Assembly: GCA_016858145.1 (NCBI GenBank)
Contig: JAEHOE010000025.1
Location: 372,001 to 436,000 of the forward strand
From: Edaphochlamys debaryana
Lineage: Eukaryota > Chlorophyta > Chlorophyceae > Chlamydomonadales
Reading direction: 5' to 3'
Length of the DNA stretch: 64,000 nt
Shown here: positions 35,201 through 57,309 of the stretch, piece by piece
Position numbering within the stretch: the stretch's first letter is position 1
Layout of the letters: the number at the start of each line of letters is the position of its first letter
Notes under the pieces: generated by a model
Told to the model about the DNA's origin: nothing
Seen by the model: the letters and a program-made list of their open reading frames with translations, nothing else
The model's database searches: none
Made by a program: the position numbers and the translations under genes

Positions 35201-36656
35201 CCTCCGTGTGGACCCTCCCCAGCTGGCGCGGGCCCTGGGGGCACTGGCGGCGCTCCACGCGCCCCCCGGCCCCGCCGCCGCCGCCGCCGCCAGCCTGCTC
35301 CGCTGCACGCGCCTTTCGGACGTACCCACGCCCGCCCTCGTGCGCCTGGCCGAGCTCTCGTCCAAGTGGGGCGTACGGCAGCCAGTGCTGTACGGCCGGA
35401 TCGTACGGCAGATCCAGGCGCGCGGCTGGGTCCGGCCGGGCGGGCAGGGCTCCGACCGGTCCGTCGTGGCGTACGACGGTCCTCGCGCGGAGGTTGCTGA
35501 CGTGGAGATGATTGAGGAGTGGGAGCCGCAAGAGCCGCAGGTGACGGCGCTCGTACCCGTGACGGCCGCCAAGGATGGCGGCAAGAAGGCCGGCGAGAAG
35601 GAGAAGGAGCTGACGCCCGAGGAGGCGGCGGCGGCGGCGCTGGCGGCGAGCAGCGAGTCGCCGCGGGTGGCTCGGGCGGCGGTTTCGAGCTGGCGGCGGC
35701 AGGTGGCGGTGGCGGGGCCCGGGGCCGCCAGCTACCTGCGGGGCATCACGGCCCGTGAGGCCGGGGAAGTGGGCCCGGCGGCACGCGACGGCCTGGACCC
35801 GGGGGAGGTGGCACGGCTGCTGCTGGCACTGGCGAGGGTGAGCGGCCGGGAGGGGCCGATATGGCAGGGGCAGGGGGCAGCGGACACGGCGCTTGCGCAA
35901 GAGTTCTGTGTTGCTACTTGGAGGGAAGGGGTGGGCGGGCCCTTCGCCAGGCCGTGCACCGCAACCGCAACCTTCGTCCCTGCTCGTCTCCTTCCCACCC
36001 CTTCTCACCCGCCGCCCCTCCCCTCCCCGCTCACCCCACAGGCCGGGTACGATCTGCCCCGCCCCGACAAGGGCCTGCCCGCGGGGCGCCACTCGGGCGA
36101 CCCCGCCTTCGCCGGTCGCCTGCTGGACGCCGCCCTGAGCCCCCTGGACGAGTGGCTGAGGGCCGACGCGGCCGCCGGGGCCCGCGGCGGCGGCGGCGCA
36201 CGTGACGCCGCTGCGCTGCTGGCCGCCGCCGCCGTGTCGTACGGCGACCTGGTGGGAGCCGAAAGGGCGCGGAAGCTGCTCGGCGAGCTGACTCACGCCA
36301 CGCTGTACGGCAGCCGGACGCGCGACGCTGGCGGGGACCTGAGGAGCCGGCTGCTGGCGCTGACGGGCGCCGGCGCCGCATCCCCTTCCGTAGCCGCTGG
36401 CGGCGCCGCCGACGATGCGGCGGCGCTGCGCGCCAGCGTCGGCGTGTCGGCCGCCGCGGCGGCGGAGCTGGCGCTGGCGCTGGCGGCTCAGCCCGGGGCG
36501 GTGGAGGAGGCGGAGCTGAAGGCGGCGCTGGCGCTGCTCGGGGAGGGCCGGGGCGTGAGCAAGGAGCGCGTGGCGGAGGTGGTGAGGCGCGTGCGGACGG
36601 CGGGGCGGGGCGCGGCGCTGCCGCCGCGCCTGGCCGGAGAGGCGGCGTCCGCCTAG
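32297..36656 (+). CDS. OPR/FASTK-like helical-repeat protein, probably organellar RNA factor
   Basis: Exons: 32297-32550 (tentative), 32652-32887, 33063-33195, 33281-33443, 33642-33974, 34134-34187, 34406-34515, 34664-34762, 34954-34984, 35163-35837, 36042-36656 (TAG). The total is 2703 nt, 900 aa, in one phase. Repeated helical-pair signatures of the octotricopeptide/FAST-kinase-like type recur: QLARALWAYGASR, MAHMAAAAWGLAAAAG, HRAALQLAWAFASAG, QLARALGALAALHAP, EVARLLLALARV. Such proteins bind and stabilise, splice or translate specific plastid or mitochondrial mRNAs in green algae. Exon 1 gives an Arg/Ser/Ala-rich N-terminus (MTRSSLSLLAALGRCRGEAA) like a transit peptide. An alternative start is the ATG at 32653 (815 aa) or 32503. 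YLYRTIRGWQAWPRP and SVYLYDDRPRVVLRDFALS are unassigned. The target RNA cannot be predicted. Confidence 0.7.
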
Positions 36657-37563: not shown

Positions 37564-40500
37564 TCACGGCAGCAGGAACGCGCCGTCCTCGCCCCGGATG
37601 CGCTGCTTGAACACCAGCGACATCCGCGGGCCGGCGTCGTCAGCGCGCCGCTCCACGCGGATGCAGTGCTGCAGGCGGTCCTGTCGGAGAGCAGGAGAGC
37701 AGGGTGGGAGGATGGGGGAGGTATGGATGGGGCGAAGTGGGGCGTCAGGGGGCAAGGCGGGGCAAGGGTCCAGAGTTGACAGCCGTCGTCCCAGCGCCGC
37801 GGGACCAGAAATGGCGCCCGGCAGAGCCGAAGGGCGGCCGCAGGGATGGACCTCCCTGGCCGAGGCTCGCCGCCAAGTTATTCTCATCGTACCCCCCTGG
37901 TTGGACCTCCCTGCATGGGGCTGGACCTCCTTGGACGAGGCCCTGTGACTCCCCTGGGCGCTAACTCAACACAGCCACGCTCAGCCGCATCCCCGCTTAA
38001 CATCTTCCGCGCGTACCACTCCGTGTGGTGCTGGACAGCCTCGTAGCTTGTGCGCCACGCGGGGGACATGCCCCCCGCCCCCCGGGCGGCCGCTCACCTG
38101 GCAGTCGCCAAACATGTGGACCATGTCGCCGTTGGAGACGCGGTAGAGCCAGCGGCTGTCGTAGTCCGAGATCTCCCGGAAGATGAAGGTGCGCGTGTCC
38201 CCCAGCGACACCACCGCCTGGTGGGGGGTCCACCTGGGCGCCGGGGGGTGGGCGGGGGAGCGGGCCGGACAGAGGCGCAGGTTGGGCATCAGGTTTGGCA
38301 GTGCGTGTGGAGATAAGAGTGCTGGCGGCCAGGGCCTCGGGCAGTCGGGCTGCAGCGTGCTGGCGGGGCTAAGATGCGACGCTTTCTATGCAGCGCAAGC
38401 TCAACCAGGGGAGCCTGGGGTCCCGTATGGACTACGCGTCACTCACTTGCCGTACAGGGGGTCCACGTGGTACCGCATGCCGCACTTGCCGTCCTCGTAG
38501 AAGTTGATGAGGCATGAGTCATAATCCACGCCGGTGCGCTCGTACAGCAGGTCCCGGACCTGAGGCGGGGCAAATGTCATCAGCTCCCAAGCCGCGAGCT
38601 GATAAGGTGCATCTCATGCAAGGACGACTAGGATGGCAGGCCGTCCCAGCAACGCACATGCGGTGAGGGCGACCTGCAAGGCCAAAGCGAGGGCGGAGGT
38701 GGCCCCTGGCCCATCCGTGCGGGCTGATCAGGCGCCGCCCTTCACGGTTGACCGCTGAGCGCGCACTCGCGAGCCCGTCAACCCGTTGCCTAAAGGACTG
38801 ACGGCTGACGCCGGAGCCTGCTACGCCGCCACCAAGCGCGCCAGCTAGGAATTGCGGAGCGAGACCGCAGGGAGGGGGGCACTTTGGGCCCGCCTTGGGC
38901 GACCGTGCCGTTCAGAGGCACAGCCGGCTTGGCGGCGCCGCACAGCGCTAGTGCCCTGCCAGCCGCCCACCCACCCGGCTCACGGCAGGCGAGAACCCGC
39001 CGTCCTGGGGCTGCATCTCCTTGCCGCTGTATCTGTGAGCGAGGAAGCGAAGGAAGCCAGGGCGGGACGGGCAGACGTTAAGCAACCTGTGAAGGGAGGA
39101 ACAGGGCAGAATGACAGCAAAGAGCGGCCCCAAAGGTTCTATCTGGACCCCCATCCGCTTGTGCAGCTCGGATGGCCCGAAAACCATGTCCTCCCCACTT
39201 GAATGTTGCACCAATCTCCGACTGCCAGCCAGTCAGCCGGGCCTCCTCGACCGCTCTGCAGTAGGTGAGACGGCAAGGGCGGGCATTCGAGTTGATAACC
39301 TCTGCAAGTAACACTTTACCAGTGCGACGTGGTAAACAAATAAGAATGGCGTGGAAATGCACCGGCAAGAAAACTCCATTCCCCGCAACCCCACGCGTGT
39401 GTGGGCGTCCCTCGGGGCGCACAAAAGGCCTCCGCAGGCCCCGGCTCACGCCAGGGACCCAAGAGAGCAATGCTTTGACGAGGATGGGATTTGAACCCAC
39501 GCCCTTTCGGACTAGTAGCTTCACGCCGGACTTCCGTTCCGGCTAGTAGCATCCTGAAACTAGCGCCTTAGACCGCTCGGCCACCTCGTCGAACCGCTGC
39601 ACGCGCCTTCCAGAGGAAGGGGGGCGGATGACACGCAGGCACACAAACCCCGCCCGCTCGCGCAAAAGCCACCCGAAAAGCGACGGAAAAGAGCGCTCGG
39701 GGCTCAGGACGCCACGCGCCAGCAGGGAAAAAAGGGCCCACGCGTGGAGACGCGCCAGCGGGCAAGAAAGCGGCCAAAAGGCCAGCTGCGGAGGAGCCCG
39801 CCCAAGCCTCAGCCGCAACGCAAGCCTCTGGAGGCCACGCGGGCCGGGCGTTGCGGGCCGGGCGATGCAGGCCGGGCGTAGCAGGCCCCCTGCCAGCAGA
39901 CCCCTGGGGAGAGGGGCCGGCCCTGACGTGGGCCGACCCTCCGTGTGGCCCGCGCCGCCCGTGACGCCCCGGGGGCCTACGCCGCTCCGGGGCGTCCAGC
40001 CGCTAGGGCTGGCCGCCGGACGCTGGACGCAGCGCAGGCTGCGCGGCAGCAGCAGCCGAGGCAGGCACGCCGCCAGGCGCCTGGCACTCGGCCTTTTGAC
40101 CACGGGCCGGGAGAGCGGCGGCCTGACCAGGAGCATGCCCCGGCCCACATTCGGGCCCCATGCCCACATGCCGCCGGCCCGTGCGCCGCTCGAGTGGCTC
40201 CCCGCCCTGGCGCTGCCAGGTCCGCCGCTGTGCAGGCACCCTCCGCCACGTGCCTCCATTCCCGGCGTGGCCGCTTCAGCGCCAGGTCCACCATCCAGCA
40301 GGGTGCCAGGCGTCCATGCCGCGTCCGCATGGCCGCCGTCCTCCTTGCCGCCTCATCGCGCGCGGGCTACGTGGTATCCCCCCCTGCGCTTCTGTCCCCT
40401 TCCTGGCTCCTAGTAGACTGTGCACTGACCTCTCCCCCTCCCCAACATCGCTCCTGCCCATTCCTCCGCTCCGCTCGCCCCAAAGTCCCCCTCCACCCCG

Positions 40501-43500
40501 GCGTCCCCTGTTCGAATCCTCCCGAGGCCCCACGCGTGTGTGGGCGTCCCTCGGGGCGCACAAAAGGCCTCCGCAGGCCCCGGCTCACGCCAGGGACCCA
40601 AGAGAGCAATGCTTTGACGAGGATGGGATTTGAACCCACGCCCTTTCGGACTAGTAGCTTCACGCCGGACTTCCGTTCCAGCTAGTAGCATCCTGAAACT
40701 AGCGCCTTAGACCGCTCGGCCACCTCGTCGAACCGCTGCACGCGCCTTCCAGAGGAAGGGGGGCGGATGACACGCAGGCACACAAACCCCGCCCGCTCGC
40801 GCAAAAGCCACCCGAAAAGCGACGGAAAAGAGCGCTCGGGGCTCAGGACGCCACGCGCCAGCAGGGAAAAAAGGGCCCACGCGTGGAGACGCGCCAGCGG
40901 GCAAGAAAGCGGCCAAAAGGCCAGCTGCGGAGGAGCCCGCCCAAGCCTCAGCCGCAACGCAAGCCTCTGGAGGCCACGCGGGCCGGGCGTTGCGGGCCGG
41001 GCGATGCAGGCCGGGCGTAGCAGGCCCCCTGCCAGCAGACCCCTGGGGAGAGGGGCCGGCCCTGACGTGGGCCGACCCTCCGTGTGGCCCGCGCCGCCCG
41101 TGACGCCCCGGGGGCCTACGCCGCTCCGGGGCGTCCAGCCGCTAGGGCTGGCCGCCGGACGCTGGACGCAGCGCAGGCTGCGCGGCAGCAGCAGCCGAGG
41201 CAGGCACGCCGCCAGGCGCCTGGCACTCGGCCTTTTGACCACGGGCCGGGAGAGCGGCGGCCTGACCAGGAGCATGCCCCGGCCCACATTCGGGCCCCAT
41301 GCCCACATGCCGCCGGCCCGTGCGCCGCTCGAGTGGCTCCCCGCCCTGGCGCTGCCAGGTCCGCCGCTGTGCAGGCACCCTCCGCCACGTGCCTCCATTC
41401 CCGGCGTGGCCGCTTCAGCGCCAGGTCCACCATCCAGCAGGGTGCCAGGCGTCCATGCCGCGTCCGCATGGCCGCCGTCCTCCTTGCCGCCTCATCGCGC
41501 GCGGGCTACGTGGTATCCCCCCCTGCGCTTCTGTCCCCTTCCTGGCTCCTAGTAGACTGTGCACTGACCTCTCCCCCTCCCCAACACCGCTCCTGCCCAT
41601 TCCTCCGCTCCGCTCGCCCCAAAGTCCCCCTCCACCCCGGCGTCCCCTGTTCGAATCCTCCCGAGGCCCCACGCGTGTGTGGGCGTCCCTCGGGGCGCAC
41701 AAAAGGCCTCCGCAGGCCCCGGCTCACGCCAGGGACCCAAGAGAGCAATGCTTTGACGAGGATGGGATTTGAACCCACGCCCTTTCGGACTAGTAGCTTC
41801 ACGCCGGACTTCCGTTCCAGCTAGTAGCATCCTGAAACTAGCGCCTTAGACCGCTCGGCCACCTCGTCGAACCGCTGCACGCGCCTTCCAGAGGAAGGGG
41901 GGCGGATGACACGCAGGCACACAAACCCCGCCCGCTCGCGCAAAAGCCACCCGAAAAGCGACGGAAAAGAGCGCTCGGGGCTCAGGACGCCACGCGCCAG
42001 CAGGGAAAAAAGGGCCCACGCGTGGAGACGCGCCAGCGGGCAAGAAAGCGGCCAAAAGGCCAGCTGCGGAGGAGCCCGCCCAAGCCTCAGCCGCAACGCA
42101 AGCCTCTGGAGGCCACGCGGGCCGGGCGTTGCGGGCCGGGCGATGCAGGCCGGGCGTAGCAGGCCCCCTGCCAGCAGACCCCTGGGGAGAGGGGCCGGCC
42201 CTGACGTGGGCCGACCCTCCGTGTGGCCCGCGCCGCCCGTGACGCCCCGGGGGCCTACGCCGCTCCGGGGCGTCCAGCCGCTAGGGCTGGCCGCCGGACG
42301 CTGGACGCAGCGCAGGCTGCGCGGCAGCAGCAGCCGAGGCAGGCACGCCGCCAGGCGCCTGGCACTCGGCCTTTTGACCACGGGCCGGGAGAGCGGCGGC
42401 CTGACCAGGAGCATGCCCCGGCCCACATTCGGGCCCCATGCCCACATGCCGCCGGCCCGTGCGCCGCTCGAGTGGCTCCCCGCCCTGGCGCTGCCAGGTC
42501 CGCCGCTGTGCAGGCACCCTCCGCCACGTGCCTCCATTCCCGGCGTGGCCGCTTCAGCGCCAGGTCCACCATCCAGCAGGGTGCCAGGCGTCCATGCCGC
42601 GTCCGCATGGCCGCCGTCCTCCTTGCCGCCTCATCGCGCGCGGGCTACGTGGTATCCCCCCCTGCGCTTCTGTCCCCTTCCTGGCTCCTAGTAGACTGTG
42701 CACTGACCTCTCCCCCTCCCCAACATCGCTCCTGCCCATTCCTCCGCTCCGCTCGCCCCAAAGTCCCCCTCCACCCCGGCGTCCCCTGTTCGAATCCTCC
42801 CGAGGCCCCACGCGTGTGTGGGCGTCCCTCGGGGCGCACAAAAGGCCTCCGCAGGCCCCGGCTCACGCCAGGGACCCAAGAGAGCAATGCTTTGACGAGG
42901 ATGGGATTTGAACCCACGCCCTTTCGGACTAGTAGCTTCACACCGGACTTCCGTTCCAGCTAGTAGCATCCTGAAACTAGCGCCTTAGACCGCTCGGCCA
43001 CCTCGTCGAACCGCTGCACGCGCCTTCCAGAGGAAGGGGGGCGGATGACACGCAGGCACACAAACCCCGCCCGCTCGCGCAAAAGCCACCCGAAAAGCGA
43101 CGGAAAAGAGCGCTCGGGGCTCAGGACGCCACGCGCCAGCAGGGAAAAAAGGGCCCACGCGTGGAGACGCGCCAGCGGGCAAGAAAGCGGCCAAAAGGCC
43201 AGCTGCGGAGGAGCCCGCCCAAGCCTCAGCCGCAACGCAAGCCTCTGGAGGCCACGCGGGCCGGGCGTTGCGGGCCGGGCGATGCAGGCCGGGCGTAGCA
43301 GGCCCCCTGCCAGCAGACCCCTGGGGAGAGGGGCCGGCCCTGACGTGGGCCGACCCTCCGTGTGGCCCGCGCCGCCCGTGACGCCCCGGGGGCCTACGCC
43401 GCTCCGGGGCGTCCAGCCGCTAGGGCTGGCCGCCGGACGCTGGACGCAGCGCAGGCTGCGCGGCAGCAGCAGCCGAGGCAGGCACGCCGCCAGGCGCCTG

Positions 43501-46500
43501 GCACTCGGCCTTTTGACCACGGGCCGGGAGAGCGGCGGCCTGACCAGGAGCATGCCCCGGCCCACATTCGGGCCCCATGCCCACATGCCGCCGGCCCGTG
43601 CGCCGCTCGAGTGGCTCCCCGCCCTGGCGCTGCCAGGTCCGCCGCTGTGCAGGCACCCTCCGCCACGTGCCTCCATTCCCGGCGTGGCCGCTTCAGCGCC
43701 AGGTCCACCATCCAGCAGGGTGCCAGGCGTCCATGCCGCGTCCGCATGGCCGCCGTCCTCCTTGCCGCCTCATCGCGCGCGGGCTACGTGGTATCCCCCC
43801 CTGCGCTTCTGTCCCCGTCCTGGCTCCTAGTAGACTGTGCACTGACCTCTCCCCCTCCCCAACACCGCTCCTGCCCATTCCTCCGCTCCGCTCGCCCCAA
43901 AGTCCCCCTCCACCCCGGCGTCCCCTGTTCGAATCCTCCCGAGGCCCCACGCGTGTGTGGGCGTCCCTCGGGGCGCACAAAAGGCCTCCGCAGGCCCCGG
44001 CTCACGCCAGGGACCCAAGAGAGCAATGCTTTGACGAGGATGGGATTTGAACCCACGCCCTTTCGGACTAGTAGCTTCACACCGGACTTCCGTTCCAGCT
44101 AGTAGCATCCTGAAACTAGCGCCTTAGACCGCTCGGCCACCTCGTCGAACCGCTGCACGCGCCTTCCAGAGGAAGGGGGGCGGATGACACGCAGGCACAC
44201 AAACCCCGCCCGCTCGCGCAAAAGCCACCCGAAAAGCGACGGAAAAGAGCGCTCGGGGCTCAGGACGCCACGCGCCAGCAGGGAAAAAAGGGCCCACGCG
44301 TGGAGACGCGCCAGCGGGCAAGAAAGCGGCCAAAAGGCCAGCTGCGGAGGAGCCCGCCCAAGCCTCAGCCGCAACGCAAGCCTCTGGAGGCCACGCGGGC
44401 CGGGCGTTGCGGGCCGGGCGATGCAGGCCGGGCGTAGCAGGCCCCCTGCCAGCAGACCCCTGGGGAGAGGGGCCGGCCCTGACGTGGGCCGACCCTCCGT
44501 GTGGCCCGCGCCGCCCGTGACGCCCCGGGGGCCTACGCCGCTCCGGGGCGTCCAGCCGCTAGGGCTGGCCGCCGGACGCTGGACGCAGCGCAGGCTGCGC
44601 GGCAGCAGCAGCCGAGGCAGGCACGCCGCCAGGCGCCTGGCACTCGGCCTTTTGACCACGGGCCGGGAGAGCGGCGGCCTGACCAGGAGCATGCCCCGGC
44701 CCACATTCGGGCCCCATGCCCACATGCCGCCGGCCCGTGCGCCGCTCGAGTGGCTCCCCGCCCTGGCGCTGCCAGGTCCGCCGCTGTGCAGGCACCCTCC
44801 GCCACGTGCCTCCATTCCCGGCGTGGCCGCTTCAGCGCCAGGTCCACCATCCAGCAGGGTGCCAGGCGTCCATGCCGCGTCCGCATGGCCGCCGTCCTCC
44901 TTGCCGCCTCATCGCGCGCGGGCTACGTGGTATCCCCCCCTGCGCTTCTGTCCCCTTCCTGGCTCCTAGTAGACTGTGCACTGACCTCTCCCCCTCCCCA
45001 ACACCGCTCCTGCCCATTCCTCCGCTCCGCTCGCCCCAAAGTCCCCCTCCACCCCGGCGTCCCCTGTTCGAATCCTCCCGAGGCCCCACGCGTGTGTGGG
45101 CGTCCCTCGGGGCGCACAAAAGGCCCTCCGCAGGCCCCGGCTCACGCCAGGGACCCAAGAGAGCAATGCTTTGACGAGGATGGAATTTGAACCCACGCCC
45201 TTTCGGACTAGTAGCTTCACAGCCGGACTTCCGTTCCAGGCTAGTAGCATCCTGAAACTAGCGCCTTAGACCGCTCGGCCACCTCGTCGAACCGCTGCAC
45301 GCGCCTTCCAGAGGAAGGGGGGCGGATGACACGCAGGCACACAAACCCCGCCCGCTCGCGCAAAAGCCACCCGAAAAGCGACGGAAAAGAGCGCTCGGGG
45401 CTCAGGACGCCACGCGCCAGCAGGGAAAAAAGGGCCCACGCGTGGAGACGCGCCAGCGGGCAAGAAAGCGGCCAAAAGGCCAGCTGCGGAGGAGCCCGCC
45501 CAAGCCTCAGCCGCAACGCAAGCCTCTGGAGGCCACGCGGGCCGGGCGTTGCGGGCCGGGCGATGCAGGCCGGGCGTAGCAGGCCCCCTGCCAGCAGACC
45601 CCTGGGGAGAGGGGCCGGCCCTGACGTGGGCCGACCCTCCGTGTGGCCCGCGCCGCCCGTGACGCCCCGGGGGCCTACGCCGCTCCGGGGCGTCCAGCCG
45701 CTAGGGCTGGCCGCCGGACGCTGGACGCAGCGCAGGCTGCGCGGCAGCAGCAGCCGAGGCAGGCACGCCGCCAGGCGCCTGGCACTCGGCCTTTTGACCA
45801 CGGGCCGGGAGAGCGGCGGCCTGACCAGGAGCATGCCCCGGCCCACATTCGGGCCCCATGCCCACATGCCGCCGGCCCGTGCGCCGCTCGAGTGGCTCCC
45901 CGCCCTGGCGCTGCCAGGTCCGCCGCTGTGCAGGCACCCTCCGCCACGTGCCTCCATTCCCGGCGTGGCCGCTTCAGCGCCAGGTCCACCATCCAGCAGG
46001 GTGCCAGGCGTCCATGCCGCGTCCGCATGGCCGCCGTCCTCCTTGCCGCCTCATCGCGCGCGGGCTACGTGGTATCCCCCCCTGCGCTTCTGTTCCCGTC
46101 CTGGCCCCTAGTAGACTGTGCACTGACCTCTCCCCCTCCCCAACACCGCTCCTGCCCATTCCTCCGCTCCGCTCGCCCCAAAGTCCCCCTCCACCCCGGC
46201 GTCCCCTGTTCGAATCCTCCCGAGGCCCCACGCGTGTGTGGGCGTCCCTCGGGGCGCACAAAAGCCCTCCGCAGGCCCCGGCTCACGCCAGGGACCCAAG
46301 AGAGCAATGCTTTGACGAGGATGGAATTTGAACCCACGCCCTTTCGGACTAGTAGCTTCACGCCGGACTTCCGTTCCAGCTAGTAGCATCCTGAAACTAG
46401 CGCCTTAGACCGCTCGGCCACCTCGTCGAACCGCTGCACGCGCCTTCCAGAGGAAGGGGGGCGGATGACACGCAGGCACACAAACCCCGCCCGCTCGCGC

Positions 46501-49500
46501 AAAAGCCACCCGAAAAGCGACGGAAAAGAGCGCTCGGGGCTCAGGACGCCACGCGCCAGCAGGGAAAAAAGGGCCCACGCGTGGAGACGCGCCAGCGGGC
46601 AAGAAAGCGGCCAAAAGGCCAGCTGCGGAGGAGCCCGCCCAAGCCTCAGCCGCAACGCAAGCCTCTGGAGGCCACGCGGGCCGGGCGTTGCGGGCCGGGC
46701 GATGCAGGCCGGGCGTGGCAGGCCCCCTGCCAGCAGACCCCTGGGGAGAGGGGCCGGCCCTGACGTGGGCCGACCCCCCGTGTGGCCCGCGCCGCCCGTG
46801 ACGCCCCGGGGGCCTACGCCGCTCCGGGGCGTCCAGCCGCTAGGGCTGGCCGCCGGACGCTGGACGCAGCGCAGGCTGCGCGGCAGCAGCAGCCGAGGCA
46901 GGCACGCCGCCAGGCGCCTGGCACTCGGCCTTTTGACCACGGGCCGGGAGAGCGGCGGCCTGACCAGGAGCATGCCCCGGCCCACATTCGGGCCCCATGC
47001 CCACATGCCGCCGGCCCGTGCGCCGCTCGAGTGGCTCCCCGCCCTGGCGCTGCCAGGTCCGCCGCTGTGCAGGCACCCCTCGCCACGTGCCTCCATTCCC
47101 GGCGTGGCCGCTTCAGCGCCGGGTCCACCATCCAGCAGGGTGCCAGGCGTCCATGCCGCGTCCGCATGGCCGCCGTCCTCCTTGCCGCCTCATCGCGCGC
47201 GGGCTACGTGGTATCTCCCCCTGCGCTTCTGTCCCCATCCTGGCCCCTAGTAGACTGTGCACTGACATCTCCCCCTCCCCAACACCGCTCCTGCCCATTC
47301 CTCCGCTCCGCTCGCCCCAAAGTCCCCCTCCACCCCCGGCGTCCCCTGTTCGAATCCTCCCGAGGCCCCACGCGTGTGTGGGCGTCCCTCGGGGCGCACA
47401 AAAGGCCTCCGCAGGCCCCGGCTCACGCCAGGGACCCAAGAGAGCAATGCTTTGACGAGGATGGGATTTGAACCCACGCCCTTTCGGACTAGTAGCTTCA
47501 CGCCGGACTTCCGTTCCGGCTAGTAGCATCCTGAAACTAGCGCCTTAGACCGCTCGGCCACCTCGTCGAACCGCTGCACGCGCCTTCCAGAGGAAGGGGG
47601 GCGGATGACACGCAGGCACACAAACCCCGCCCGCTCGCGCAAAAGCCACCCGAAAAGCGACGGAAAAGAGCGCTCGGGGCTCAGGACGCCACGCGCCAGC
47701 AGGGAAAAAAGGGCCCACGCGTGGAGACGCGCCAGCGGGCAAGAAAGCGGCCAAAAGGCCAGCTGCGGAGGAGCCCGCCCAAGCCTCAGCCGCAACGCAA
47801 GCCTCTGGAGGCCACGCGGGCCGGGCGTTGCGGGCCGGGCGATGCAGGCCGGGCGTAGCAGGCCCCCTGCCAGCAGACCCCTGGGGAGAGGGGCCGGCCC
47901 TGACGTGGGCCGACCCTCCGTGTGGCCCGCGCCGCCCGTGACGCCCCGGGGGCCTACGCCGCTCCGGGGCGTCCAGCCGCTAGGGCTGGCCGCCGGACGC
48001 TGGACACAGCGCAGGCTGCGCGGCAGCAGCAGCCGAGGCAGGCACGCCGCCAGGCGCCTGGCACTCGGCCTTTTGACCACGGGCCGGGAGAGCGGCGGCC
48101 TGACCAGGAGCATGCCCCGGCCCACATTCGGGCCCCATGCCCACATGCCGCCGGCCCGTGCGCCGCTCGAGTGGCTCCCCGCCCTGGCGCTGCCAGGTCC
48201 GCCGCTGAGCAGGCGCCCCTCGCCACGTGCCTCCATTCCCGGCGTGGCCGCTTCAGCGCCAGGTCCACCATCCAGCAGGGTGCCAGGCGTCCATGCCGCG
48301 TCCGCATGGCCGCCGTCCTCCTTGCCGCCTCATCGCGCGCGGGCTACGTGGTATCCCCCCCTGCGCTTCTGTTCCCGTCCTGGCCCCTAGTAGACTGTGC
48401 ACTGACCTCTCCCCCTCCCCAACACCGCTCCTGCCCATTCCTCCGCTCCGCTCGCCCCAAAGTCCCCCTCCACCCCGGCGTCCCCTGTTCGAATCCTCCC
48501 GAGGCCCCACGCGTGTGTGGGCGTCCCTCGGGGCGCACAAAAGCCCTCCGCAGGCCCCGGCTCACGCCAGGGACCCAAGAGAGCAATGCTTTGACGAGGA
48601 TGGGATTTGAACCCACGCCCTTTCGGACTAGTAGCTTCACACCGGACTTCCGTTCCAGCTAGTAGCATCCTGAAACTAGCGCCTTAGACCGCTCGGCCAC
48701 CTCGTCGAACCGCTGCACGCGCCTTCCAGAGGAAGGGGGGCGGATGACACGCAGGCACACAAACCCCGCCCGCTCGCGCAAAAGCCACCCGAAAAGCGAC
48801 GGAAAAGAGCGCTCGGGGCTCAGGACGCCACGCGCCAGCAGGGAAAAAAGGGCCCACGCGTGGAGACGCGCCAGCGGGCAAGAAAGCGGCCAAAAGGCCA
48901 GCTGCGGAGGAGCCCGCCCAAGCCTCAGCCGCAACGCAAGCCTCTGGAGGCCACGCGGGCCGGGCGTTGCGGGCCGGGCGATGCAGGCCGGGCGTAGCAG
49001 GCCCCCTGCCAGCAGACCCCTGGGGAGAGGGGCCGGCCCTGACGTGGGCCGACCCTCCGTGTGGCCCGCGCCGCCCGTGACGCCCCGGGGGCCTACGCCG
49101 CTCCGGGGCGTCCAGCCGCTAGGGCTGGCCGCCGGACGCTGGACACAGCGCAGGCTGCGCGGCAGCAGCAGCCGAGGCAGGCACGCCGCCAGGCGCCTGG
49201 CACTCGGCCTTTTGACCACGGGCCGGGAGAGCGGCGGCCTGACCAGGAGCATGCCCCGGCCCACATTCGGGCCCCATGCCCACATGCCGCCGGCCCGTGC
49301 GCCGCTCGAGTGGCTCCCCGCCCTGGCGCTGCCAGGTCCGCCGCTGAGCAGGCGCCCCTCGCCACGTGCCTCCATTCCCGGCGTGGCCGCTTCAGCGCCA
49401 GGTCCACCATCCAGCAGGGTGCCAGGCGTCCATGCCGCGTCCGCATGGCCGCCGTCCTCCTTGCCGCCTCATCGCGCGCGGGCTACGTGGTATCCCCCCC

Positions 49501-52500
49501 TGCGCTTCTGTTCCCGTCCTGGCCCCTAGTAGACTGTGCACTGACCTCTCCCCCTCCCCAACACCGCTCCTGCCCATTCCTCCGCTCCGCTCGCCCCAAA
49601 GTCCCCCTCCACCCCGGCGTCCCCTGTTCGAATCCTCCCGAGGCCCCACGCGTGTGTGGGCGTCCCTCGGGGCGCACAAAAGCCCTCCGCAGGCCCCGGC
49701 TCACGCCAGGGACCCAAGAGAGCAATGCTTTGACGAGGATGGGATTTGAACCCACGCCCTTTCGGACTAGTAGCTTCACGCCGAACTTCCGTTCCAGCTA
49801 GTAGCATCCTGAAACTAGCGCCTTAGACCGCTCGGCCACCTCGTCGAACCGCTGCACGCGCCTTCCAGAGGAAGGGGGGCGGATGACACGCAGGCACACA
49901 AACCCCGCCCGCTCGCGCAAAAGCCACCCGAAAAGCGACGGAAAAGAGCGCTCGGGGCTCAGGACGCCACGCGCCAGCAGGGAAAAAAGGGCCCACGCGT
50001 GGAGACGCGCCAGCGGGCAAGAAAGCGGCCAAAAGGCCAGCTGCGGAGGAGCCCGCCCAAGCCTCAGCCGCAACGCAAGCCTCTGGAGGCCACGCGGGCC
50101 GGGCGTTGCGGGCCGGGCGATGCAGGCCGGGCGTGGCAGGCCCCCTGCCAGCAGACCCCTGGGGAGAGGGGCCGGCCCTGACGTGGGCCGACCCCCCGTG
50201 TGGCCCGCGCCGCCCGTGACGCCCCGGGGGCCTACGCCGCTCCGGGGCGTCCAGCCGCTAGGGCTGGCCGCCGGACGCTGGACACAGCGCAGGCTGCGCG
50301 GCAGCAGCAGCCGAGGCAGGCACGCCGCCAGGCGCCTGGCACTCGGCCTTTTGACCACGGGCCGGGAGAGCGGCGGCCTGACCAGGAGCATGCCCCGGCC
50401 CACATTCGGGCCCCATGCCCACATGCCGCCGGCCCGTGCGCCGCTCGAGTGGCTCCCCGCCCTGGCGCTGCCAGGTCCGCCGCTGTGCAGGCACCCCTCG
50501 CCACGTGCCTCCATTCCCGGCGTGGCCGCTTCAGCGCCGGGTCCACCATCCAGCAGGGTGCCAGGCGTCCATGCCGCGTCCGCATGGCCGCCGTCCTCCT
50601 TGCCGCCTCATCGCGCGCGGGCTACGTGGTATCTCCCCCTGCGCTTCTGTCCCCGTCCTTGCCCCTAGTAGACTGTGCACTGACATCTCCCCCTCCCCAA
50701 CACCGCTCCTGCCCATTCCTCCGCTCCGCTCGCCCCAAAGTCCCCCTCCACCCCCGGCGTCCCCTGTTCGAATCCTCCCGAGGCCCCACGCGTGTGTGGG
50801 CGTCCCTCGGGGCGCACAAAAGCCCTCCGCAGGCCCCGGCTCACGCCAGGGACCCAAGAGAGCAATGCTTTGACGAGGATGGAATTTGAACCCACGCCCT
50901 TTCGGACTAGTAGCTTCACGCCGGACTTCCGTTCCGGCTAGTAGCATCCTGAAACTAGCGCCTTAGACCGCTCGGCCACCTCATCGAACCGCTGCACGCG
51001 CCTTCCAGAGGAAGGGGGGCGGATGACACGCAGGCACACAAACCCCGCCCGCTCGCGCAAAAGCCACCCGAAAAGCGACGGAAAAGAGCGCTCGGGGCTC
51101 AGGACGCCACGCGCCAGCAGGGAAAAAAGGGCCCACGCGTGGAGACACGCCAGCGGGCAAGAAAGCGGCCAAAAGGCCAGCTGCGGAGGAGCCCGCCCAA
51201 GCCTCAGCCGCAACGCAAGCCTCTGGAGGCCACGCGGGCCCGGCGTTGCGGGCCGGGCGATGCAGGCCGGGCGTGGCAGGCCCCCTGCCAGCAGGCCCCT
51301 GGGGAGAAGGGCCGGCCCTGACGTGGGCCGACCCCCCGTGTGGCCCGCGCCGCCCGTGACGCCCCGGGGGCCTACGCCGCTTCGGGGCGTCCAGCCGCTG
51401 GGGGCTGGCCGCCGGACGCTGGACGCAGCGCAGGCTACGCGGCAGCAGCAGCCGAGGCAGGCACGCCGCCAGGCGCCTGGCACTCGGCCTTTTGACCACG
51501 GGCCGGGAGAGCGGCGGCCTGACCAGGAGCATGCCCCGGCCCACATTCGGGCCCCATGCCCACATGCCGCCGGCCCGTGCGCCGCTCGAGTGGCTCCCCG
51601 CCCTGGCGCTGCCAGGTCCGCCGCTGTGCAGGCACCCTCCGCCACGTGCCTCCATTCCCGGCGTGGCCGCTTCAGCGCCAGGTCCACCATCCAGCAGGGT
51701 GCCAGGCGTCCATGCCGCGTCCGCATGGCCGCCGTCCTCCTTGCCGCCTCATCGCGCGCGGGCTACGTGGTATCTCCCCCTGCGCTTCTGTCCCCGTCCT
51801 TGCCCCTAGTAGACTGTGCACTGACATCTCCCCCTCCCCAACACCGCTCCTGCCCATTCCTCCGCTCCGCTCGCCCCAAAGTCCCCCTCCACCCCCGGCG
51901 TCCCCTGTTCGAATCCTCCCGAGGCCCCACGCGTGTGTGGGCGTCCCTCGGGGCGCACAAAAGCCCTCCGCAGGCCCCGGCTCACGCCAGGGACCCAAGA
52001 GAGCAATGCTTTGACGAGGATGGGATTTGAACCCACGCCCTTTCGGACTAGTAGCTTCACGCCGAACTTCCGTTCCAGCTAGTAGCATCCTGAAACTAGC
52101 GCCTTAGACCGCTCGGCCACCTCGTCGAACCGCTGCACGCGCCTTCCAGAGGAAGGGGGGCGGATGACACGCAGGCACACAAACCCCGCCCGCTCGCGCA
52201 AAAGCCACCCGAAAAGCGACGGAAAAGAGCGCTCGGGGCTCAGGACGCCACGCGCCAGCAGGGAAAAAAGGGCCCACGCGTGGAGACACGCCAGCGGGCA
52301 AGAAAGCGGCCGAAAGGCCAGCTGCGGAGGAGCCCGCCCAAGCCTCAGCCGCAACGCAAGCCTCTGGAGGCCACGCGGGCCCGGCGTTGCGGGCCGGGCG
52401 ATGCAGGCCGGGCGTGGCAGGCCCCCTGCCAGCAGGCCCCTGGGGAGAAGGGCCGGCCCTGACGTGGGCCGACCCCCCGTGTGGCCCGCGCCGCCCGTGA

Positions 52501-55500
52501 CGCCCCGGGGGCCTACGCCGCTTCGGGGCGTCCAGCCGCTGGGGGCTGGCCGCCGGACGCTGGACGCAGCGCAGGCTACGCGGCAGCAGCAGCCGAGGCA
52601 GGCACGCCGCCAGGCGCCTGGCACTCGGCCTTTTGACCACGGGCCGGGAGAGCGGCGGCCTGACCAGGAGCATGCCCCGGCCCACATTCGGGCCCCATGC
52701 CCACATGCCGCCGGCCCGTGCGCCGCTCGAGTGGCTCCCCGCCCTGGCGCTGCCAGGTCCGCCGCTGTGCAGGCACCCTCCGCCACGTGCCTCCATTCCC
52801 GGCGTGGCCGCTTCAGCGCCAGGTCCACCATCCAGCAGGGTGCCAGGCGTCCATGCCGCGTCCGCATGGCCGCCGTCCTCCTTGCCGCCTCATCGCGCGC
52901 GGGCTACGTGGTATCCCCCCCTGCGCTTCTGTCCCCTTCCTGGCTCCTAGTAGACTGTGCACTGACCTCTCCCCCTCCCCAACACCGCTCCTGCCCATTC
53001 CTCCGCTCCGCTCGCCCCAAAGTCCCCCTCCACCCCGGCGTCCCCTGTTCGAATCCTCCCGAGGCCCCACGCGTGTGTGGGCGTCCCTCGGGGCGCACAA
53101 AAGCCCTCCGCAGGCCCCGGCTCACGCCAGGGACCCAAGAGAGCAATGCTTTGACGAGGATGGGATTTGAACCCACGCCCTTTCGGACTAGTAGCTTCAC
53201 GCCGAACTTCCGTTCCAGCTAGTAGCATCCTGAAACTAGCGCCTTAGACCGCTCGGCCACCTCATCGAACCGCTGCACGCGCCTTCCAGAGGAAGGGGGG
53301 CGGATGACACGCAGGCACACAAACCCCGCCCGCTCGCGCAAAAGCCACCCGAAAAGCGACGGAAAAGAGCGCTCGGGGCTCAGGACGCCACGCGCCAGCA
53401 GGGAAAAAAGGGCCCACGCGTGGAGACGCGCCAGCGGGCAAGAAAGCGGCCAAAAGGCCAGCTGCGGAGGAGCCCGCCCAAGCCTCAGCCGCAACGCAAG
53501 CCTCTGGAGGCCACGCGGGCCGGGCGTTGCGGGCCGGGCGATGCAGGCCGGGCGTGGCAGGCCCCCTGCCAGCAGACCCCTGGGGAGAGGGGCCGGCCCT
53601 GACGTGGGCCGACCCCCCGTGTGGCCCGCGCCGCCCGTGACGCCCCGGGGGCCTACGCCGCTCCGGGGCGTCCAGCCGCTAGGGCTGGCCGCCGGACGCT
53701 GGACACAGCGCAGGCTGCGCGGCAGCAGCAGCCGAGGCAGGCACGCCGCCAGGCGCCTGGCACTCGGCCTTTTGACCACGGGCCGGGAGAGCGGCGGCCT
53801 GACCAGGAGCATGCCCCGGCCCACATTCGGGCCCCATGCCCACATGCCGCCGGCCCGTGCGCCGCTCGAGTGGCTCCCCGCCCTGGCGCTGCCAGGTCCG
53901 CCGCTGTGCAGGCACCCCTCGCCACGTGCCTCCATTCCCGGCGTGGCCGCTTCAGCGCCGGGTCCACCATCCAGCAGGGTGCCAGGCGTCCATGCCGCGT
54001 CCGCATGGCCGCCGTCCTCCTTGCCGCCTCATCGCGCGCGGGCTACGTGGTATCTCCCCCTGCGCTTCTGTCCCCGTCCTTGCCCCTAGTAGACTGTGCA
54101 CTGACATCTCCCCCTCCCCAACACCGCTCCTGCCCATTCCTCCGCTCCGCTCGCCCCAAAGTTCCCCTCCACCCCCGGCGTCCCCTGTTCGAATCCTCCC
54201 GAGGCCCCACGCGTGTGTGGGCGTCCCTCGGGGCGCACAAAAGCCCTCCGCAGGCCCCGGCTCACGCCAGGGACCCAAGAGAGCAATGCTTTGACGAGGA
54301 TGGGATTTGAACCCACGCCCTTTCGGACTAGTAGCTTCACGCCGGACTTCCGTTCCGGCTAGTAGCATCCTGAAACTAGCGCCTTAGACCGCTCGGCCAC
54401 CTCAACGAACCGCTGCACGCGCCTTCCAGAGGAAGGGGGGCGGATGACACGCAGGCACACAAACCCCGCCCGCTCGCGCAAAAGCCACCCGAAAAGCGAC
54501 GGAAAAGAGCGCTCGGGGCTCAGGACGCCACGCGCCAGCAGGGAAAAAAGGGCCCACGCGTGGAGACACGCCAGCGGGCAAGAAAGCGGCCGAAAGGCCA
54601 GCTGCGGAGGAGCCCGCCCAAGCCTCAGCCGCAACGCAAGCCTCTGGAGGCCACGCGGGCCCGGCGTTGCGGGCCGGGCGATGCAGGCCGGGCGTGGCAG
54701 GCCCCCTGCCAGCAGGCCCCTGGGGAGAAGGGCCGGCCCTGACGTGGGCCGACCCCCCGTGTGGCCCGCGCCGCCCGTGACGCCCCGGGGGCCTACGCCG
54801 CTTCGGGGCGTCCAGCCGCTGGGGGCTGGCCGCCGGACGCTGGACGCAGCGCAGGCTACGCGGCAGCAGCAGCCGAGGCAGGCACGCCGCCAGGCGCCTG
54901 GCACTCGGCCTTTTGACCACGGGCCGGGAGAGCGGCGGCCTGACCAGGAGCATGCCCCGGCCCACATTCGGGCCCCATGCCCACATGCCGCCGGCCCGTG
55001 CGCCGCTCGAGTGGCTCCCCGCCCTGGCGCTGCCAGGTCCGCCGCTGTGCAGGCACCCTCCGCCACGTGCCTCCATTCCCGGCGTGGCCGCTTCAGCGCC
55101 AGGTCCACCATCCAGCAGAGTGCCAGGCGCCCGAGCCGTGCCCTTGTATCGCACAATGCTTCTCGCGTTTGCTTTCTCAAGTCTTGCCCGTCCCTCAGTC
55201 ATCAACCATGAACCCTAATCCATTTACGGTTGACTGTAGCCGGTGTTGTTAGCTGGGTGAAGGAAACTTTCATTTCCGTAGAGAGCTTGAGGCAGCATTT
55301 GACTTTGCACTGCTAGGGTAGCCCTCTCATACAGTAGTCCTCCCATTCCATCCCATCCCACCACCACCCCTGCCCCCACCTGGCCCCTCCGTCCAGGTAG
55401 ATGGTGTCACGGTGCAGGGCCACCTCCCCCATGAAGTCCTGGGGCGAGAGGCGAGGGGAAGCGTAAGAGAAACAGGGGACAAGTACTGATGGTTTCAGAG

Positions 55501-57309
55501 GGAGAGGGGTTCAAAGCAACGCATGGCGGCCCCTGGGCTCTGTGCTCTTCCTGCATCCCCCAGCAGGCAGGCCTGCGCACCTCCAGGCGAAGCTCGGGCG
55601 CGAACCGGGGCCACACGCGAAAGGGCACCGCCAGCGCTGGCCATAGGGAGGCGTCGGCATGGGCTCTGCGGGTGGGGCCCAGGACGAGCCCGTGTGGGCA
55701 GCTAGCTTCAGCCCTGGCTTGGCCCTGGCCCGACCTTGCTAAGCATACAGGCCTGGTCCATAGCACCTCGACGTGGCAACCGGGCCAAACCCCCTTTCCC
55801 GATTGGCCCTTCAGCACACTGACCCGCTGCACGCAAAGCAGCCTCCCGTACACGACCCAGTTCCTCCGCTCCTCTCCGCTATCCGCCACCCCTCCCGGTG
55901 CGCCGCCATCCGCAGCGCCTCCTTCCTCCTCGGCCGCCACGCACTGCCCCAGCTCCTTCACCCAGCTCCCGGGCGCCCCGCCTCACCGGTCCCAGTGCGC
56001 CACCGCCCACACCAGCTCCGCCTGCTCCTGCTGCCCCAGGCCCCCCTGGCGCACCTGCGAGGGGGCAGCGGTAAGAAACAACACGTGCAGCAGGAGGAGC
56101 GGGAGACACGCGTGGGGTTTGGCGGGGCTATCATACGTCTGTATGTGGCTTGTAACAGGGTACAAGCGCTGAAGCGGGCAGGGCAGGGGGCGTACTTGGG
56201 CCCCACGGCTGAGCATTCCCTCGCTGATTGAGCCCCGGTGCTATGCCTGCGAGCATGCCCCCAAGCGACACCAGCCCTTGATCTGTTTATGACCCCCCAC
56301 CCCAAGCCCTGCACGCCCACACACCCGATCGTCCACGGCCTCCTTGAGGAGGCGCAGCCGCGCCACAGCCGCTGTCGGCAGCGCTGCCTCCACCCCCTCC
56401 GCGCGGCTGTCTCCACTGGAGCGGGCAGCGTCGAAAGAGGAGGCCGCAGCGCCGGAGGCTGCGCGACTGGCGCCATGTGCTGGCACGTGAGCAGCGCTGC
56501 GGTCGCTGTCGTACAGGACGAGCTGGTCGACCCAGATCGCGGCCAGGTCTGCCAGCTGCCGGCCCGTCAGGCTGCGCAGGTCGGGCAGGGAGGCGGGCAG
56601 CGGCGGGCCGGGGGCCAGGAGCGCGGGCCAGGGGAGGGGAATCCCCGCAGGGACTGCCTCCGGTGGAGACGCCGAGGGGGGTGGCGTGGGGGTGGGGGCC
56701 GAGCGCGCCGACGCTGCGGCCGCTGCAGGCTTGGCTGTTGCCAACGCGGCAGGCGTGGGAGCAGGGGCCTGGCGCACGGCCTTGGAGCGACGCTCCTCAG
56801 CGGTACCGCCCTTTGTGCCGCGGCCGGCCGCAGGCACGGCGGGTGCGGAGGGGCCGGCCGCAGGCGTGGGTGTGGAAGTGGATGCGGGCTGAGCGCCCCC
56901 TGCCCCAGCCTTGCTGAGCTTGGCGTCCCGCTGCTGTTTGGGGGGCTGCGGGTTGGTGGCCTCGGGTTGGCGGGGCGCCTGCCGCTGCGACTCCTCCCAC
57001 TTGCTGCGAGTCGGCGGGGAGGCGTGGTGGGAGGGTTGTGGTGGGCATCGACGGCACGATGAACCCCACGCAGCCGCGGGTCGCTTCCGCTTACCGTCGC
57101 TGCGCCGCGAGCCTCTTCTGCCGTGGCGTCAGCGCCTCGCTGGTTGCTTTCAGGGCCTGCGGCTCCGAATCGGCGCCGACGCTCGCGGTCGCCACAACAG
57201 CCAGCCCGCGGCGACTGTGCCTACATGCGCTTTGCGGTGTGGGCCAAAGGCTGGCGCGTCGGGACAGAATTGAGCTTGCATGCTCAGAAAGAATCGCGGA
57301 GAGCGACAT
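37564..57309 (-). CDS. AlkB-like 2-oxoglutarate/Fe(II) dioxygenase with a 16-kb intron holding the tRNA-Leu array
   Basis: Predicted nucleic-acid (or protein) demethylase/hydroxylase of the AlkB family. Exons (minus): 57309-57095, 57003-56325, 56054-55987, an uncertain exon within about 55900-55800, 55665-55581, 55438-55380, then 39255-39199, 39032-38984, 38559-38447, 38233-38098, 37680-37564 (TGA). Across the array, DTIYLDGGA ends with AG and the next exon starts with A, giving DGGARAVEEARLTGWQSE, then GATFKYSGKEMQ. This is the usual AlkB order (substrate-lid RLTxWQ, then YSG). The catalytic core has the motif NFYEDGKCGMRYHVDPLYG (HxD), distal His in QHCIRV and Arg in PRMSLVFKQR. Exon 1 is an Arg/Ser/Ala-rich transit-like peptide ending RQKRLAAQRRKWEE. 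A ~230-aa Pro/Ala-rich region precedes the core. The ~55900-55800 exon and its junctions are unresolved. Which AlkB subfamily is unclear. Confidence 0.72.
39476..39590 (-). tRNA. tRNA-Leu(CAG), copy 1, with 35-nt intron
   Basis: Class II tRNA. Acceptor stem GACGAGG/CCTCGTC is perfect (7 bp) with A73, the leucine discriminator. D-arm GCC...GGC, anticodon stem CTAGT/ACTAG around TTCAGG (anticodon CAG), variable arm TCCGAAAGGGC, T-arm GTGGG-TTCAAAT-CCCAT. The intron follows position 37 and folds on GCCGGA/TCCGGC. A box TGGCCGAGCGG and B box GGTTCAAATCC are internal. The first T4 on the coding strand is about 50 nt downstream (39423-39426). CCA is not encoded. Confidence 0.95.
40615..40729 (-). 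tRNA. tRNA-Leu(CAG), copy 2
   Basis: Mature sequence identical to copy 1. The intron stem has one change (GCTGGA/TCCGGC), a U-G wobble. Confidence 0.95.
41754..41868 (-). tRNA. tRNA-Leu(CAG), copy 3
   Basis: Same as copy 2 throughout, including the intron. Confidence 0.95.
42893..43007 (-). tRNA. tRNA-Leu(CAG), copy 4
   Basis: Mature sequence as copy 1. Intron stem GCTGGA/TCCGGT, still pairable with two wobbles. Confidence 0.95.
44032..44146 (-). tRNA. tRNA-Leu(CAG), copy 5
   Basis: Same as copy 4 throughout, including the intron. Confidence 0.95.
45172..45288 (-). tRNA. tRNA-Leu(CAG), copy 6, longer intron and T-stem change
   Basis: Two single-base insertions, both in the intron (37 nt), give a possible AGCC/GGCT extension with a bulged base. 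The T-stem C61 is changed to T, so the near-invariant G53-C61 pair becomes G-U and the B box is altered. Acceptor and anticodon arms are intact. Confidence 0.85.
46313..46427 (-). tRNA. tRNA-Leu(CAG), copy 7, T-stem change
   Basis: C61 to T in the T-stem/B box, as in copy 6. Intron as copy 2. Otherwise intact. Confidence 0.88.
47453..47567 (-). tRNA. tRNA-Leu(CAG), copy 8
   Basis: Identical to copy 1 in mature sequence and intron stem (GCCGGA/TCCGGC). Confidence 0.95.
48592..48706 (-). tRNA. tRNA-Leu(CAG), copy 9
   Basis: Mature sequence as copy 1. Intron as copies 4 and 5. Confidence 0.95.
49731..49845 (-). tRNA. tRNA-Leu(CAG), copy 10
   Basis: Mature sequence as copy 1. Intron stem GCTGGA/TTCGGC, paired with two wobbles. 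Confidence 0.95.
50871..50985 (-). tRNA. tRNA-Leu(CAG), copy 11, acceptor and T-stem changes
   Basis: The 5' end reads GATGAGG, so position 3 pairs U-G instead of C-G. C61 is also changed to T. Both changes fall in functional arms. Intron as copy 1. Confidence 0.8.
52012..52126 (-). tRNA. tRNA-Leu(CAG), copy 12
   Basis: Mature sequence as copy 1. Intron as copy 10. Confidence 0.95.
53152..53266 (-). tRNA. tRNA-Leu(CAG), copy 13, acceptor change
   Basis: The 5' end reads GATGAGG (U3-G70 wobble). T-stem normal. Intron as copy 10. Confidence 0.87.
54292..54406 (-). tRNA. tRNA-Leu(CAG), copy 14, acceptor stem disrupted
   Basis: The 5' end reads GTTGAGG, giving a U2-U71 mismatch and a U3-G70 wobble in the acceptor stem. 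It is the last gene of the array. It may be a decaying copy. The rest, including the anticodon and intron (as copy 1), is intact. Confidence 0.7.

Follow-up and report, generated by a model that had tools for sequence, protein, structure and literature searches.

Both intronic transfer RNA (tRNA) genes and tandem arrays of tRNA genes have been described before. In Caenorhabditis elegans, 44–47% of the tRNA genes lie in introns of genes transcribed by RNA polymerase II (Pol II) (PMC4999229). Entamoeba carries uniform, head-to-tail units with up to five tRNA genes each, which make up more than 10% of the genome (PMC2652664), and the human tRNA variable-number tandem repeat at 1q23.3 contains 9–43 units of 7.3 kb per allele (PMC4041453). 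In Chlamydomonas reinhardtii and Volvox carteri, 56% and 41% of the tRNA genes, respectively, lie in clusters (PMC2888827). The combination of the two arrangements in one intron was not found described: a search of the open-licence literature returned no account of a large co-oriented tandem tRNA array in a single intron, and the main text of the Edaphochlamys debaryana genome paper does not contain the word tRNA (PMC8226300). Here we report a locus on E. debaryana contig JAEHOE010000025.1 (assembly GCA_016858145.1) where 14 co-oriented, intron-bearing tRNA-Leu(CAG) genes are nested in one intron of an AlkB-like gene on the same strand. The analysed stretch of 64,000 nt is called the window, and all positions are window coordinates unless another sequence is named.

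Fourteen tRNA-Leu(CAG) genes within one AlkB-like gene

The Rfam model RF00005, applied at its gathering score (cut-off 29 bits), detected 14 tRNA genes in the window; they lie on the minus strand within 39476..54406, and all score above the cut-off (39.0 to 48.7 bits). ARAGORN found 0 tRNA genes in the window with default settings, and the same 14 genes, labelled SeC(TCA), when introns were allowed. Read by hand, the genes carry an intron that follows position 37 and is 35 nt long (in copy 6, 37 nt), and the mature RNA is then 80 nt long, with a class II variable arm, A73 and a CAG anticodon. The nearest relative elsewhere in the genome, at C44:305427-305578, is labelled tRNA-Leu(cag) by ARAGORN and has a 37-nt intron. 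The selenocysteine label was therefore rejected: it misplaces the intron, and the mature sequence, A73 and the label of the nearest relative all indicate Leu(CAG). The RF00005 cloverleaf, the class II arm, A73 and the CAG anticodon left after removal of the intron at 37/38 thus predict tRNA-Leu(CAG) genes, in agreement with the tRNA-Leu identity proposed in a first-pass annotation of this stretch and now with the isoacceptor specified. The genes recur in near-identical units spaced 1,139–1,141 bp apart, head to tail, forming a tandem tRNA array that takes up 98% of intron 5 of the host gene (Table 1). The array edges are the limits of homology in self-BLAST.

The ends of the host exons were placed manually at GT-AG sites, with the conserved protein as guide. 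Ten exons between 57309 and 37564, separated by nine GT-AG introns with matching phases, yield an open frame of 525 aa, and the introns other than intron 5 measure 91–424 nt. The C-terminal 203 aa of the model match Pfam PF13532 (2OG-FeII_Oxy_2) with 54.5 bits against a cut-off of 31.2, and the motifs YHVDPLYG, LQHCIRV and GPRMSLVFKQR are located at residues 434, 490 and 504. From AlkB structures, we take the HxD and distal His residues to be the iron ligands and the Arg to bind 2-oxoglutarate (2OG). With the profile match, HxD, distal His and Arg all present, the host product is predicted to be an AlkB-like 2OG-Fe(II) oxygenase, and its closest solved relatives by sequence are human ALKBH3 chains (expect value [E] 3.9e-7). 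No second AlkB gene of this kind was detected in the genome at E ≤ 0.001, as all seven matching tblastn pieces (7/7) map to the AlkB-like locus; the idea of a host made dispensable by a second copy was rejected on the same result.

A search of 3,011 candidates gave 19 homologues at E up to 0.001, led by proteins of Pleodorina, Volvox africanus, Astrephomene, C. schloesseri and V. carteri, and these five leading volvocine proteins are 66–72% identical to the model across 91–100% of the region. An alignment of 13 sequences runs continuously over the codon split by intron 5, with no residue missing (DGS-R-AVEESR in Pleodorina, GGA-R-AVEEAR in E. debaryana), and a protein from an MMETSP transcriptome likewise joins the N and C halves. 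The first-pass annotation had proposed a single gene, a single intron and 14 tRNA-Leu genes in the host's orientation, and had set beforehand that orthologues in which the two halves are never joined would speak against it. The gene model, Rfam and the homologues collinear over the junction bear the proposal out, the homologues excluding chance, and the halves are joined at the same residues both in the volvocine proteins and in the transcript-derived one. The exon 5–exon 6 join that it gave also holds in phase, with the donor GT at 55379-55378, the acceptor ending at 39256 and AG+A encoding Arg369. By this comparison of proteins and gene model, the tRNA genes are placed between exons of what is predicted to be one protein-coding gene.

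Table 1. Features of the AlkB-like gene and its intronic tRNA array (window coordinates).
Feature	Position	Strand	Description	Basis
Exon 1	57095..57309	-	ATG at 57309	gene model; identical in HYH03_006565
Exon 2	56325..57003	-	low-complexity linker	gene model; HYH03_006565
Exon 3	55987..56054	-		gene model; HYH03_006565
Exon 4	55581..55665	-		gene model; HYH03_006565
Exon 5	55380..55438	-	DFMGEVALHRDTIYLDGGA-, ends with AG of split Arg codon	gene model
Intron 5	39256..55379	-	GT-AG, 16,124 nt, holds array	gene model
Unique 5' part of intron 5	55139..55379	-	241 nt	array homology stops at 55138
Decoy exon	54359..54422	-	cryptic acceptor CCCCCCTTCCTCTGGAAG before G in unit 14 leader, frame into tRNA gene to stop	HYH03_006565
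Tandem array	39389-55138	-	15.75 kb, 13.8 units, one tRNA-Leu(CAG) gene per unit	self-BLAST, unit alignment, Rfam
tRNA-Leu(CAG) 14	54292..54406	-	A2T + C3T, acceptor-stem mismatch; edge unit next to exon 5	Rfam, unit alignment	
tRNA-Leu(CAG) 13	53152..53266	-	C3T (wobble pair)	Rfam, unit alignment
tRNA-Leu(CAG) 12	52012..52126	-	canonical	Rfam, unit alignment
tRNA-Leu(CAG) 11	50871..50985	-	C3T and C61T	Rfam, unit alignment
tRNA-Leu(CAG) 10	49731..49845	-	canonical	Rfam, unit alignment
tRNA-Leu(CAG) 9	48592..48706	-	canonical	Rfam, unit alignment
tRNA-Leu(CAG) 8	47453..47567	-	canonical	Rfam, unit alignment
tRNA-Leu(CAG) 7	46313..46427	-	C61T in B box	Rfam, unit alignment
tRNA-Leu(CAG) 6	45172..45288	-	37-nt intron, C61T in B box	Rfam, unit alignment
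tRNA-Leu(CAG) 5	44032..44146	-	canonical	Rfam, unit alignment
tRNA-Leu(CAG) 4	42893..43007	-	canonical	Rfam, unit alignment
tRNA-Leu(CAG) 3	41754..41868	-	canonical	Rfam, unit alignment
tRNA-Leu(CAG) 2	40615..40729	-	canonical	Rfam, unit alignment
tRNA-Leu(CAG) 1	39476..39590	-	canonical mature sequence	Rfam, unit alignment
Unique 3' part of intron 5	39256..39388	-	133 nt, with acceptor	gene model + self-BLAST
Exon 6	39199..39255	-	(R)AVEEARLTGWQSEIGATF(K)	gene model
Exon 7	38984..39032	-	YSGKEMQPQDGGFSPA	gene model
Exon 8	38447..38559	-	HVD motif	gene model
Exon 9	38098..38233	-		gene model
Exon 10	37564..37680	-	distal His (QHCIRV), Arg (GPRMSLVFKQR), stop	gene model

Deposited gene models and repeated acceptor sites

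The deposited annotation splits the host into two models that flank the array, HYH03_006565 (N half, 389 aa) and HYH03_006564 (C half, 132 aa). It could be taken at its word, as two separate genes, or as a host broken by the array and dying, with transcripts that stop in the array and a C half that starts alone. Comparison of the deposited models with ours revealed that HYH03_006565 is the same over residues 1–369 of 389 and then ends with RVQRFVEVAERSKALVSGCY. Exactly this 20-residue tail results when exon 5 is joined to an acceptor within the unit 14 leader (first exon base 54422) and the frame is continued into the tRNA gene. HYH03_006564 begins at residue 394 of our model, which is a Met encoded by exon 7 and lies inside the AlkB domain, and is identical to the model from there to the end; it spans positions 90–192 of the 194 in the Pfam profile, as against 23–192 in the Pleodorina protein, and is without R, T, W and Y-S-G-K positions at which 18 homologues do not vary. 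The genes of E. debaryana were predicted by BRAKER with RNA sequencing (RNA-seq), and the median intron of the species is 198 bp (Craig et al. 2021, PMC8226300), so that intron 5 is about 80 times the median. The split resembles a prediction error, since a tRNA unit supplies the tail of the first model and the start of the second falls inside the AlkB domain; gene prediction appears to have divided a single gene at an intron far over the species' usual length. The outcome of two separate genes, which the first-pass annotation had named as counting against a single host, is thus found in the deposited annotation in form, while the make-up of both models favours the single gene. A very recent break would leave the same sequence picture, but both halves are open and conserved about as in other species: the C half is 75–77% identical to its six nearest homologues, and its branch length is 0.23, with 0.05–0.37 for the other twelve sequences. 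Two genes or a dying host therefore seem to us decidedly improbable, and our model would correct a published one that is split into two parts and takes some of its sequence from a tRNA gene.

The acceptor context chosen in HYH03_006565 (CCCCCCTTCCTCTGGAAG before G) occurs 14 times, once per unit. These identical pyrimidine-rich AG sites in the leaders might act as a splicing switch, competing with the true acceptor and producing a truncated protein without the catalytic core, through which the array would tune its host. The variable columns were counted over units 1–13, since unit 14 is cut at its upstream end; they number 0/100 in the leader, 2/80 in the tRNA exons, 5/37 in the tRNA intron, 2/61 in the trailer and 26/846 in the rest. 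The invariant leader and the use of the unit 14 site in the deposited model would both suit a switch; however, a gene predictor may choose such a site without any read behind it, and 0/100 is only mildly unusual against 26/846. We consider a switch of this kind unlikely.

Two further observations concern the host gene. An open stretch on the plus strand (35007-36653, 549 codons between stops, high codon score) converges on its 3' end. TGTAA, the green-algal poly(A) signal, is missing from intron 5 (0 on either strand); its absence carries no significance, as the 14 units of the array amount to repeated samples of a single one.

Array units and the genome's tRNA-Leu(CAG) genes

Analysis of the units revealed that units 1–5 differ from one another at 1–4 positions over the whole unit, and units 6–13 at up to 24 positions. 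In the first 905 columns of the alignment, the edge units 11, 12 and 14 cluster apart from the others (3–5 differences inside the cluster, 13–20 versus the rest), and units 7, 10 and 13 are mutually close (1–4 differences) yet interleaved with other types. This mosaic with diverged edge units is the pattern that unequal crossing-over would be expected to leave. The closeness of units 1–5, together with an array of 15.75 kb at the edge of the read span, could also speak for an assembly artefact, with two loci joined via near-identical repeats or a wrong number of copies. The two array edges, however, meet halves of a single conserved gene that complement each other and share strand and phase, which a chance join of unrelated loci would not produce. 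In addition, the library had been sheared to fragments of about 20 kb and size-selected at 15–50 kb (PMC8226300), and the differences among units 6–13 act as markers. An artefact is thus very unlikely, although the copy number itself, which rests on one assembly, may still be off.

A minisatellite with a 14-bp repeat, GGCCGGGCGTTGCA or a near variant of it in about 3.3 copies, also lies inside each unit (39842-39887 and 13 further copies). A B-box-like GTTCGAATCC lies on the plus strand, opposite the tRNA genes, once per unit at 13 places (40510, 41649 ... 54187); about 0.001 would be expected per unit from base composition, for a motif chosen post hoc, and the element might be a TFIIIC-only site or a product of chance. 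A further RNA in the unit was sought with Rfam at E up to 1 in one unit, which returned the tRNA and one weak match far under the cut-off, and the idea was rejected.

The mature sequence of nine of the 14 tRNA genes (copies 1–5, 8–10 and 12) is identical to that of four dispersed copies in the genome (three on C14, one on C21), the introns of which have another sequence and length (27–33 nt); the tRNA exons are therefore the conserved part. A single base of the variable arm distinguishes a fifth dispersed copy, on C44. The hairpin fold of the tRNA intron is retained in 14/14 array copies (-11.3 to -15.9 kcal/mol), and C3T in copies 11 and 13 keeps a wobble pair. The copies with acceptor-stem changes (11, 13 and 14) are all found where the array faces exon 5, at 50871-54406, and copy 14, closest to exon 5, looks the least sound.

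The share of the array in the tRNA-Leu(CAG) set was estimated with two different patterns. When the whole genome was scanned for the A-box region and up to 3 mismatches were allowed, 54 places matched (15 with the reversed pattern as control), and the 26 exact matches comprise 14 in the array, eight on C44, three on C14 and one on C21. An exact scan for the tRNA-Leu(CAG) anticodon arm and intron gave 20 places (control 0), with 14 in the array, three on C14, two on C21, one of which is truncated after the T loop, and one on C44. Both patterns support a share of 14/19 of the full-length, undamaged-looking tRNA-Leu(CAG) genes found in the genome, a count that leaves out seven passenger copies on C44 (14/26 with them) and that a copy with a more altered anticodon arm would escape. 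These passengers sit in a tRNA-Phe(GAA) array and are changed in the anticodon stem and T arm in 7/7 cases. CUG accounts for 29 of the 44 Leu codons in the AlkB-like gene and for 101/149 when three more long open reading frames (ORFs) of the window are added; these ORFs had been selected with a score based on the codon use of the AlkB-like gene, and the sample is thus biased and its CUG share a pointer only.

Other repeated tRNA loci resemble the intronic array in having repeated units that bear tRNA genes. The locus C44:285434-305578 consists of 1,401-bp units, each with a tRNA-Phe(GAA) and a degenerate tRNA-Leu(CAG) gene (seven read), and has one sound tRNA-Leu(CAG) gene at its upstream end. 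Units of about 2,074 bp with several tRNA genes (Lys, Ala, Gln, Glu and others) occur at C126:328773-339218, and tRNA-Leu(AAG) units of about 2,650 bp at C31:501820-515110. The repeated locus C206:108831-140370, near a contig end, has irregular steps of about 4.8 kb and more. A coding scan of the flanks and a partial Pfam search found no gene spanning any of these four arrays, with a scorer that misses short exons and did not clearly recover AlkB exons 6–10 in the control; a homologue search for one ORF of the flanks also gave none.

Origin of the locus and comparison with known systems

The reading that we favour, with a probability of about 0.8, is that a tRNA unit entered an ordinary intron and was expanded there by unequal crossing-over, while the host and the tRNA genes stayed functional. 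As the unique flanks measure 241 and 133 nt, intron 5 without the array would be about 374 nt long, an ordinary size within the range of the gene's other introns. Such an intron would have acquired one tRNA-bearing unit, and the pattern among the units suggests that unequal crossing-over and homogenisation expanded it to 13.8 units. The C44:305427-305578 locus, the nearest relative found for the array unit, shares with it only about 150 bp around the tRNA gene (91%); no match to the remainder of the unit was found at that locus, in a search that also failed to list the array itself. Each tRNA gene, with its own internal A and B boxes, would be read by RNA polymerase III (Pol III) and end at TTTT, while Pol II would read the whole locus in the same direction. 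Judging from the intact, conserved and phase-matched exons, the 16,124-nt intron would then be spliced out to give the 525-aa protein. The array would supply most of the gene dose for the CUG-reading tRNA, and selection for dosage may have maintained it.

Several points weigh against this reading. The deposited annotation, although aided by RNA-seq, does not bridge intron 5. Substitutions in the mature tRNA occur in 5/14 array copies and affect the B box in three, which reads GGTTCAAATCC in 11 copies and GGTTCAAATTC in copies 6, 7 and 11 (C61T). The array units are also without a close terminator: TTTT lies 50–51 nt downstream of the tRNA in 14/14 units, versus 5–13 nt in the five dispersed copies. 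A hairpin can aid Pol III termination at T4 in vitro (PMC9278858); a strong hairpin terminator before T4 was rejected here, as GC-rich structure is present in the trailers and yet their fold is no stronger than that of shuffles (z -1.0). In C. elegans, Pol III occupancy is lower on intronic tRNA genes of the same strand than on those of the opposite strand, and the host promoter affected the one nested tRNA gene tested (PMC4999229). By analogy, the array copies may be weakly used or partly damped.

The shared orientation of host and array can also be viewed from the host. In a mammalian reporter, an intronic Pol III unit in sense orientation had no measurable effect on the host, and an antisense unit lowered host expression by 20–30% (PMC5358760); co-orientation may therefore be the better tolerated arrangement. 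A functional coupling, in which Pol II passage and host splicing are tied to the array through the 14 decoy acceptors or Pol III occupancy and the copy number or activity of the array tunes the AlkB enzyme, strikes us as decidedly improbable. ALKBH3 has been reported to demethylate tRNA. If the host enzyme also acts on tRNA, the locus would link a set of tRNA genes and an enzyme that modifies tRNA in a feedback.

Under the favoured reading of one spliced host gene with functional tRNA genes, Pol II would have to cross 14 Pol III units of the same direction and skip 14 identical potential acceptors. A host that is still spliced would thus offer a natural test of how far a Pol II gene tolerates Pol III units and of the effect of their copy number. 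Among the sound genes found for the CUG-reading tRNA, about three quarters lie at this one repeat-driven place, and the loss or gain of units should therefore alter both the tRNA gene dose and the length of the intron.

Comparison with the described systems shows what the locus shares with each of them. Like the nested tRNA genes of C. elegans, the array genes lie inside an intron of a Pol II gene. To our knowledge, the intronic tRNA genes of C. elegans do not form tandem arrays, whereas the E. debaryana intron is filled to 98% by 14 co-oriented, near-identical units that hold most of the sound genes of one isoacceptor. The uniform head-to-tail tRNA-bearing units recall those of Entamoeba, for which no mention of an intronic location was found in PMC2652664; here a single array, its units bearing one tRNA gene apiece, is enclosed by a gene. 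The human 1q23.3 locus is likewise a tandem tRNA-bearing repeat and differs in its 7.3-kb units, and the word 'intron' is absent from the main text of PMC4041453. A Pol III unit within an intron of a Pol II gene is also found in Polr3e, where one antisense MIR unit lowers host expression (PMC5358760), in contrast to the 14 sense units of E. debaryana.

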